Shown here: positions 25,700 to 26,475 of the stretch, in pieces | Numbering within the stretch: the first letter of the stretch is position 1 | How the letters are laid out: each line of letters starts with the position of its first letter | From: Sphingobacteriaceae bacterium | GTDB taxonomy: Bacteria > Bacteroidota > Bacteroidia > Sphingobacteriales > Sphingobacteriaceae | Assembly (NCBI GenBank): GCA_014380615.1 | Contig: JACMJM010000032.1 | Coordinates: 1-64,000, forward strand | Direction of reading: 5' to 3' | DNA length: 64,000 nucleotides | The notes under the pieces: model-generated | What the model was told of the DNA's origin: nothing | Seen by the model: the letters and a program-made list of their open reading frames with translations, nothing else | Databases searched by the model: none | Made by a program: the position numbers and the translations under genes

Positions 25700-25758
25700 G
25701 GTTCAGAGCATCTGCCTTACAAGCAGAGGGTCACTGGTTCGAACCCAGTATCTCCCAC
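25700..25758 (+). repeat. attR: 59-base direct repeat, displaced tRNA 3' end
   Basis: Exact copy of 20166-20224 without a 5' tRNA half; it is the original chromosomal 3' end of the tRNA, pushed right by integration. It is followed directly by the original terminator at 25759. Confidence 0.93.
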
Positions 25759-25793
25759 AAAGCCTCAGAGAAATCTGGGGCTTTTGTATTTTT
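25759..25793 (+). terminator. Original tRNA-Val terminator (first copy)
   Basis: Arms AAAGCCTCAGA (25759-25769) and TCTGGGGCTTT (25774-25784) around a GAAA tetraloop, then TGTATTTTT. It starts directly after the displaced tRNA 3' end. Two further copies occur at 26101 and 26448. Confidence 0.85.
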
Positions 25794-25797
25794 ACCT

Positions 25798-26059
25798 ATG
25801 TATACTGTCTATATCCTTTACTCAGCTATATTGAATAAATATTATGTTGGCTGTACATCCAATCTTGAAGATCGTTTAAAAAAGCACAACACAAACCACT
25901 CTCGCTTTAGGAAAACTTTTGGATTGGGAACTTAATTATTCGGAACAGTATGATAATAAATCTGACGCTTTAAAACGGGAAAAAGAAATCAAGCGCTGGA
26001 AGAGTAGCAAAATGATCGAGCGGTTGATTAGCTCAGCTGGTTCAGAGCATCCCGACTAA
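25798..26059 (+). pseudogene. GIY-YIG nuclease, cassette copy 1 (frameshifted)
   Basis: Begins ATG 25798 like the intact copy ([24 protein letters not shown] core), five bases after the terminator. Near 25893-25910 it is five bases shorter than copy 2, shifting the frame to an early TAA. After the shift the frame resumes ([20 protein letters not shown]) and runs through the tRNA-like segment to a TAA at 26057-26059, ending SSAGSEHPD. Inactive as it stands unless frameshifted. Confidence 0.85.
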
Positions 26060-26100
26060 TAAGTCGGGAGGGTCACTGGTTCGAACCCAGTATCTCCCAC
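26026..26100 (+). repeat. tRNA-Val-like sequence at the end of cassette 1
   Basis: Matches tRNA-Val from GATTAGCTC through the D-arm, and from GGGTC through T-arm and acceptor 3' strand. The anticodon arm is replaced by TCCCGACT-AATA-AGTCGGGA (26050-26069), an eight-pair hairpin three bases longer than a normal arm, and the 5' acceptor strand has two mismatches. The nuclease frame's stop lies in that hairpin. Not a functional tRNA. Confidence 0.85.
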
Positions 26101-26136
26101 AAAGCCTCAGAGAAATCTGGGGCTTTTGTGTTATTT
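26101..26136 (+). terminator. tRNA-type terminator, copy 2
   Basis: Same GAAA-capped hairpin as at 25759: arms 26101-26111 and 26116-26126, then TGTGTTATTT. It lies 342 bases from copy 1. Confidence 0.8.
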
Positions 26137-26140
26137 ACCT

Positions 26141-26410
26141 ATGTATACCGTCTATATCCTTTACTCCACTATATTGAATAAATATTATGTTGGCTGCACG
26201 TCCAGTCTTGAAGATCGTTTAAAAAAGCACAATACCAATCACGCCGGTTTTACAGGAGGAAAACATTTAGATTGGGAACTTAAATATTCGGAACAGTATG
26301 ACAATAAATCTGAGGCTTTAAAACGGGAAAAGGGAATTAAACGCTGGAAGAGTAGAAAAATGATCGAGGGTTTGATTGGCTCAGCTGGTTCAGCACATCC
26401 CGACTCATAA
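26141..26410 (+). CDS. GIY-YIG endonuclease, cassette copy 2 (intact)
   Basis: 89 residues from ATG 26141 (the frame stays open five codons up, inside the terminator). GIY-YIG core: YTVYILYST and YYVGCTS, catalytic Arg in LEDRLKKHN, and Glu in the helix [15 protein letters not shown]. This single-domain UvrC/URI-like class cuts DNA. The last 15 residues ([13 protein letters not shown]) are encoded by the tRNA-like D-arm and the left arm of the hairpin; the stop at 26408-26410 is in the hairpin loop. It could be the mobility enzyme of a cassette that targets tRNA genes. Confidence 0.88.
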
Positions 26411-26447
26411 GTCGGGAGGGTCAAGTTTCGAACCCAGTATCTCCCAC
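26374..26447 (+). repeat. tRNA-Val-like sequence at the end of cassette 2 (decayed)
   Basis: As the copy at 26026 but more degraded: GATTGGCTC, a hairpin TCCCGACT-CATA-AGTCGGGA (26398-26417), and a T-arm shortened to AAGTTTCGAACCCAGT. It is followed by the third terminator copy. Confidence 0.8.
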
Positions 26448-26475
26448 AAAGCCTCAGAGAAATTTGGGGCTTTGG
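26448..26475 (+). terminator. tRNA-type terminator, copy 3
   Basis: Arms 26448-26458 and 26463-26473 with one C-to-T change, GAAA loop, weak T-run (TTTGGTG). It lies 347 bases from copy 2; the five-base difference from the first interval equals the deletion in cassette 1. Confidence 0.7.

Follow-up and report, generated by a model that had tools for sequence, protein, structure and literature searches.

Tandem GIY-YIG nuclease units with hairpin-broken tRNA copies: a candidate selfish cassette of tRNA genes in Bacteroidota

The window analysed here, a stretch of 64,000 nucleotides at the start of contig JACMJM010000032.1 of a Sphingobacteriaceae bacterium (assembly GCA_014380615.1), carries two tandem units, each of which combines a small GIY-YIG nuclease gene with a copy of tRNA-Val that is broken by a hairpin. 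Related units are found at tRNA genes throughout the Bacteroidota. We tentatively favour, at somewhat less than even confidence, the reading that they are a selfish cassette of tRNA genes, in which the nuclease and a cognate hairpin form a pair that spreads and multiplies when breaks are repaired between tRNA copies.

The array covers positions 25759-26474 and has the order terminator, GIY-YIG gene, tRNA-Val-like tail, terminator, GIY-YIG gene, tail, terminator. An initial annotation of this DNA had described two units in tandem, 342 and 347 nt long, and both lengths hold; 309 of 348 aligned columns of the two units are identical. The array had also been thought to start at 25700; however, positions 25700-25758 are the attR of an unrelated integrative element and the units begin at 25759. 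The features of the region are:

20149-20226, + strand: intact tRNA-Val(TAC), the anchor gene (ARAGORN, Rfam scan of the own genome, tRNA inventory)
20225-25699, + strand: element with a tyrosine integrase, inserted later at the 3' end of tRNA-Val and separate from the cassette (59-nt att repeats; domains)
25700-25758, + strand: attR, the displaced 3' part of the original tRNA-Val (exact 59-nt repeat)
25759-25784, + strand: terminator-like hairpin, start of unit 1
25798-26059, + strand: GIY-YIG gene copy 1, divided by a frameshift into 25798-25935 and 25919-26059, which read in different frames
26022-26100, + strand: tRNA-Val-like tail 1 (ARAGORN tRNA-???, Rfam tRNA 41.9 bits)
26050-26069, + strand: hairpin 1, TCCCGACT(AATA)AGTCGGGA, replacing the anticodon arm and containing the stop codon
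26101-26126, + strand: terminator-like hairpin between the units
26141-26410, + strand: GIY-YIG gene copy 2, intact, 89 aa (Pfam PF01541, 55 bits; catalytic residues invariant in relatives)
26370-26447, + strand: tRNA-Val-like tail 2 (sequence comparison)
26398-26417, + strand: hairpin 2, TCCCGACT(CATA)AGTCGGGA
26447-26474, + strand: terminator-like hairpin, end of the array

The tRNA-Val(TAC) at 20149-20226 is the sole tRNA-Val that the tRNA inventory found in the assembly. Its 3' part (20166-20224) is repeated exactly over 59 nt at 25700-25758, and the domain search placed Phage_integrase, SAM and arm domains within 20375-21574; the stretch 20225-25699 is an ordinary tRNA-integrated element, which separates tRNA-Val from its cassette array. 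Its other genes include one for a DUF5906 protein of 509 aa, along with small unknown ORFs. In G001, the sister genome, tRNA-Val directly abuts the same terminator and GIY-YIG gene with no element between them; thus, the integrative element entered tRNA-Val after the cassette. Downstream of the conserved promoter region, G001 has one hairpin-broken 5' copy ahead of tRNA-Val; the window genome lacks this copy. A tyrosine recombinase is absent from the cassette units, and the integrase at 20375-21574 belongs to the separate element.

In both tails, tRNA-Val D-arm and T-arm/acceptor sequence flanks a perfect 8-bp hairpin of the form TCCCGACT-NNNN-AGTCGGGA, whose stem and 4-nt loop substitute for an anticodon arm that measures 17 nt in the real tRNA-Val. 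By chance, 0.01 matches to this hairpin would be expected in 64 kb with up to two mismatches allowed, and against the three terminator-like hairpins 0.6 would be expected. The TAA stops of the two GIY-YIG copies (26057-26059 and 26408-26410) lie within the hairpins. The eight-pair hairpin holding the stop codon in the position of the anticodon arm, the copies of both arms and the terminators had all been described in the initial annotation and are present in each unit. Tail 1 is scored as a tRNA by ARAGORN and Rfam, yet has no usable anticodon. Of the two nuclease genes that had been annotated, both are recognisable, but copy 1 is frameshifted by a net 5-nt deletion relative to copy 2, which alone is intact. 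The protein C-terminus SAGSxHPD is indeed translated D-arm and hairpin sequence; it is not conserved, however, and a functional role of this tRNA-encoded end was discarded, since many intact relatives stop before it and its part of the structure model is of low confidence.

The intact protein comprises 89 residues and belongs to the GIY-YIG nuclease superfamily: it matches the Pfam family PF01541 with 55 bits, and the residues Y5, Y16, R26 and E62 are invariant among 28 relatives. The nearest solved folds to the structure model (mean pLDDT 78) are UPF0213 and the structure-specific nuclease SLX1, while I-TevI is more distant. Neither Pfam nor the structure model revealed a separate DNA-binding domain in the 89-residue protein, which is filled by the catalytic domain. 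In scorable pairs, several of which have saturated dS, dN/dS lies between 0 and 0.4, and judging from these alignments the nuclease is under purifying selection.

Relatives of the nuclease, counted at E 1e-10 or better, are present in 78 of the 251 genomes sampled from the family. A same-strand tRNA gene lies upstream in 61 of 72 examined family loci and within 120 nt in 43 of them; by our own estimate, which assumes about 35 tRNA genes per 4 Mb, the chance of a tRNA within 120 nt is ~0.05%. The tRNAs at these loci are Val, Met, Ala, Asn and Leu. In a phylum-wide sample, the nuclease profile is matched in 156 of 247 genomes, and a tRNA is found upstream in 61 of 87 fetched loci (within 120 nt in 46), with Asp, Gly, Ser, Lys, Thr and Pro as further isotypes and Arg in one further locus. 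Carriers include Sphingobacterium, Mucilaginibacter, Pedobacter and Flavobacterium. Short GIY-YIG genes linked to tRNA genes, for which a search of other Bacteroidota had been suggested, are found across the phylum, and simple local duplication, named beforehand as an outcome that would refute the cassette idea, does not account for units that belong to a phylum-wide, tRNA-tied family.

Arrays that repeat every 344-369 nt are frequent in the family, with seven identical units in a row in G112, six near-identical ones in G237 and at least three elsewhere. The tandem arrangement in the window had been taken to mean that the cassette stacked twice; the tandem units are real, but recombination between the ~70-nt repeats explains the stacking equally well. 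In the 8-copy array of G112 (L044, about 1780-2820 as oriented), some 1 kb of other DNA that may be an insertion sequence separates nuclease units. A polarity of array decay was considered and abandoned, because the degenerate copies are distal in L020, L049, L053 and L066 and proximal in the window, L017 and L068. Some relatives, among them one gene of the window's own genome, lie away from any tRNA. This gene, L004 (G000:C64:6369-6593), and L007 (G001:C2:1195989-1196222) are GIY-YIG genes of the Met clade with neither a tRNA nor a hairpin tail, and possibly represent domesticated or stranded copies. In L184 (G303), TCCCGACGTGTCGGGA hairpins lie ~68 nt apart between GIY-YIG genes, in a 3.2-kb stretch in which no tRNA was found. 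Known phages and plasmids were searched for copies and gave no matches.

The initial annotation had further proposed that a tRNA-like tail is rebuilt at each locus, and each tail indeed copies its adjacent tRNA. When compared with a panel of the own genome's tRNAs and one tRNA-Asn, every well-preserved tail (score of at least 20) had the isotype of the adjoining tRNA as its best match; two seeming mismatches (L033 and L036) trace to a hairpin-broken Val copy that was misnamed by ARAGORN. The hairpin follows TTCAGAGCA and precedes GGGTC in the Val copies of most genera and lies in the T-arm in a Pedobacter group; it follows GGTTAGAG in Asn copies and mostly TTCATA or CTCATA in Met copies, and is located in the anticodon loop in Ala copies. 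Upstream, the stretch that separates the promoter from the tRNA can likewise hold partial tRNA copies that carry the same hairpin, in 1-6 repeats of about 80-112 nt each; downstream there are also solo hairpin units that lack a nuclease gene. An Rfam scan of 14 loci returned nothing but tRNA and two sub-threshold matches, and no other structured RNA family.

The class of the hairpin is associated with the class of the nuclease. Nucleases with a K..GR motif are accompanied by TCCG..CGGA hairpins (19/19), and SR or SK nucleases by TCCCG..CGGGA or similar hairpins (68/68); the hairpins were collected by a complementary-arm search from which 17 doubtful cases were dropped by hand, so that perfect pairing counts arise by construction, and the association between class and nuclease is all that is taken from these numbers as evidence. 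Both pairings occur within single isotypes (GR/TCCG and SR/TCCCG, respectively: Asn 3 and 9, Met 12 and 1, Ser 1 and 1), and the hairpin therefore belongs to the nuclease cassette rather than to the tRNA. On the phylum nuclease tree, the isotype changes at least 14 times for nine isotypes and the hairpin class three times, as counted before the row of L071 was corrected; L071 is no exception to the class pairing, as the hairpin at its canonical Met position is of the TCCG type. Related rows do not count as independent, and the whole GR class possibly goes back to one origin. The class match may reflect recognition of the hairpin by the enzyme or co-inheritance within one cassette.

The window's own genome contains five ATCCCGA..TCGGGA hairpins, two of which are those of the array, and with so few copies the idea that the window hairpin is a genome-wide REP was rejected; dispersed relatives of the Met-type palindrome do exist. 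At one place in the own genome (L265, G000:C56:34586-34780), tRNA-Met is followed by a solo tRNA-Met-like unit with the hairpin TCCGCCAGCTGGCGGA and no nuclease gene, and the palindrome TCCGCCAGCTGGCGGA recurs at four tRNA-free places (L266-L269; G000 C7, C26, C38 and C56). AGCT-centred palindromes that resemble TCCGCCAGCTGGCGGA recur in other genera. The palindrome TCCCGATAGCTATCGGGA was seen within a RAYT-like (REP transposase) frame read by eye, where it apparently replaces a few bases (L085, ~1181; G000:C46:192980).

Occupied and empty tRNA loci, whose comparison should reveal exact insertion points, coexist in one genus. In genus g13, one orthologous tRNA-Asn site yielded six occupied and 18 assessable empty loci, and hairpin-broken 5' copies upstream of tRNA-Asn are present in 6/6 of the former versus 0/18 of the latter. 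The occupied genomes still require three changes on the flank tree, and a single clade is rejected, even when L197 is left out, which sits on a very long branch and may be a different site. Alignments of empty with occupied loci break exactly at the hairpin of the upstream copy; the right boundary is not fixed by these comparisons, as the downstream flanks differ among genomes. In occupied loci, the native promoter and 5' half are followed by the hairpin, then by a new leader and a complete tRNA with the sequence of the native one. This order may mean that the native tRNA-Asn was split and a substitute tRNA supplied. At the tRNA-Val locus of g18, G112 with eight nuclease genes and G083 with none and one solo unit have both flanks in common. 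Two other candidate comparisons were rejected: G195, considered as the empty partner of G611, still carries ~10 nt from the start of the nuclease gene and differs in its downstream flank, which points to a deletion or rearrangement, and among L118-L127, considered as empty sites, the tRNA genes are kept only in G083 (L119), the remainder being rearranged flanks.

The tRNA-Met locus of g16 (L224-L253) holds 2-6 intact tandem tRNA-Met genes in many genomes. Nuclease-bearing loci have 2-3 intact tRNA-Met genes versus 2-6 elsewhere (p 0.002, with relatedness uncontrolled), and all of them have a tRNA-Met that lacks one base of the D-loop, a variant seen in two separate flank-tree groups; shared ancestry limits the weight of both observations. 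The nuclease tree at Val loci mostly tracks the host genus, and monophyly is rejected for only one of the four genera (p 0.015). Transfer of the nuclease between genera is accordingly weakly supported, and a clean case of it was not upheld from this tree.

According to the cassette reading that we tentatively favour, the nuclease would nick or cut DNA at one of two places: the hairpin, in folded or single-stranded form, or the tRNA position that the hairpin occupies. The tRNA half-copies that flank every unit would act as portable homology arms for recombinational break repair, by which the unit would be copied into tRNA genes of the same isotype and the array would expand or contract. Interrupted copies would be unable to serve as tRNAs, and the cell would retain at least one intact gene. 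The linkage to tRNA genes, the tails with the isotype of their neighbour, the match between hairpin and nuclease class, the patchy Asn sites with their upstream hairpin copies and alignment breaks at the hairpin, the near-identical arrays, the flanks common to G112 and G083, the kept catalytic residues, the low dN/dS and the similarity in fold to UPF0213 and SLX1 all speak for such a selfish pair, and SegB of T-even phages offers a working precedent in which a nuclease drives amplification of a tRNA region. The tRNA-less relatives (L004, L007 and others), the absence of copies from known phages and plasmids and the genus-following Val tree speak against it, as does the possibility that nuclease and hairpin class are simply inherited together; furthermore, an enzyme that cuts its own hairpin would endanger its own copies, and why cutting should bring gain rather than loss is unexplained. 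Of the selfish tRNA-linked cassette that had originally been proposed, the phylum-wide and patchy family at tRNA genes stands, while movement between tRNA genes is what we infer from genome comparisons. The broader proposal of a new class of mobile element, in which a GIY-YIG enzyme acts on its own hairpin as mobility enzyme, places hairpin-marked copies inside tRNA genes, switches isotype over evolution and uses tRNA halves as homology arms, is possible, though less likely than not.

The alternative that survives best, although we consider it unlikely, is intronless homing of the SegB type, in which the nuclease would cut the intact tRNA of one isotype, repair would copy the cassette from a donor and the hairpin, travelling along with it, would do no more than mark additional copies as immune. 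SegB of T-even phages is a GIY-YIG nuclease encoded in a tRNA cluster, and its activity brings about the tandem amplification of tRNA-Tyr and segB (PMC13096335; also PMC2988022). This precedent, the stereotyped site of the hairpin inside the tRNA and the tie of each family nuclease clade to one isotype (four isotype changes for five isotypes on the family nuclease tree, which is the minimum) agree with homing, as do the lower number of intact tRNA-Met in nuclease-bearing genomes, again with relatedness uncontrolled, and the D-loop deletion of the intact tRNA-Met, which would be expected of a resistant allele. However, the intact tRNA-Asn next to the nuclease does not differ from the tRNA-Asn of empty genomes and the interior of tRNA-Val is unchanged; under homing, the enzyme would thus cut the host's own gene. 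The many isotype changes across the phylum with retention of the hairpin class, and a protein that has no DNA-binding domain besides the catalytic one, are likewise difficult to reconcile with this alternative. The units resemble SegB in that a GIY-YIG gene is located at tRNAs and forms tandem units of tRNA and nuclease. Unlike SegB, they reside in bacterial chromosomes, encode an ~85-aa single-domain enzyme of the UPF0213/SLX1 type, gave no phage copies, have hairpin-broken tRNA copies on both sides and come as one unit per tRNA isotype.

It is improbable, in our judgement, that the units are a host-useful module that provides decoys or protection against integrating elements, offers the same against tRNA-cutting defence or phage enzymes, or adjusts tRNA dosage. 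The purifying selection on the nuclease and the position of the upstream units within the tRNA transcription unit, between promoter and tRNA, would fit such a module, and integrases do attack tRNA genes, one of them at this very tRNA-Val; yet the array in the window failed to exclude that integrase, the units are patchy within one genus, often decayed and without a fixed partner gene, and PADLOC gave weak and partial matches only. A passive history, in which decaying tandem tRNAs were struck by a common mobile palindrome of the Bacteroidota and a domesticated GIY-YIG gene was co-duplicated, is likewise improbable, for although tandem arrays of intact tRNAs are normal at such loci (up to six tRNA-Met), TCCGCCAGCTGGCGGA is dispersed outside tRNA genes in the own genome (four copies) and TCCCGATAGCTATCGGGA was seen by eye inside a RAYT-like frame, the hairpin class tracks the nuclease class, upstream hairpin units are confined to nuclease-bearing sites, the catalytic residues are preserved and the own genome has just the five ATCCCGA..TCGGGA hairpins, two of them here.

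The cassette that we tentatively favour has features in common with several known systems. As with homing endonucleases of the I-TevI/Seg type, occupied and empty alleles exist at one orthologous tRNA-Asn site and are scattered on the host tree; the separate DNA-binding domain of those enzymes, however, is absent here. REP palindromes form REPtrons with RAYT transposases, CGTC-tagged REPs are found without a known transposase, and palindromes of such palindrome/nuclease pairs can sit in genes (PMC3733652). As in these systems, the palindrome class goes with the nuclease lineage, according to the 19/19 and 68/68 pairings; in contrast to them, the GIY-YIG gene is alone in the units with no HUH tyrosine transposase, there are few copies per genome and the hairpins are almost restricted to tRNA copies in array loci. 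Like integron gene cassettes, the units pair a small gene with a repeat that contains a hairpin and are strung in tandem next to a fixed anchor, but they are copies of one gene, their repeats are tRNA copies and nearly every locus has a tRNA gene as its anchor. Few landing sites are used more often by bacterial mobile DNA than tRNA genes. The duplication of tRNA sequence at both ends recalls genomic islands in the 3' ends of tRNA genes, of which 20225-25699 is a true example, whereas the cassette is a 345-bp unit without a recombinase whose break point lies inside the tRNA and is marked by a hairpin. GIY-YIG nucleases of the Ssn type, which are specific for single-stranded DNA sequences, are linked to palindromic repeats in Neisseria. 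They share with the present units a small GIY-YIG enzyme and a repeat, but Ssn nucleases are not known to be linked to tRNA genes, and we regard the resemblance as a lead only. A search of the open-access literature found no description of such nuclease/hairpin units of tRNA genes. We regard the element as a variant of the selfish nuclease with a cognate DNA site, with a fair chance that it represents a new class.

If the pairing of nuclease and hairpin is one of real recognition, GIY-YIG enzymes would gain a role that has been known from the HUH transposases of REP elements, and many natural pairs of enzyme and site would be available for reading specificity. It would also explain many annotations of a 'GIY-YIG nuclease family protein' and of odd tRNAs in genomes of the Bacteroidota. 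Beyond this, the system makes it testable how a selfish nuclease survives on an essential single-copy gene.
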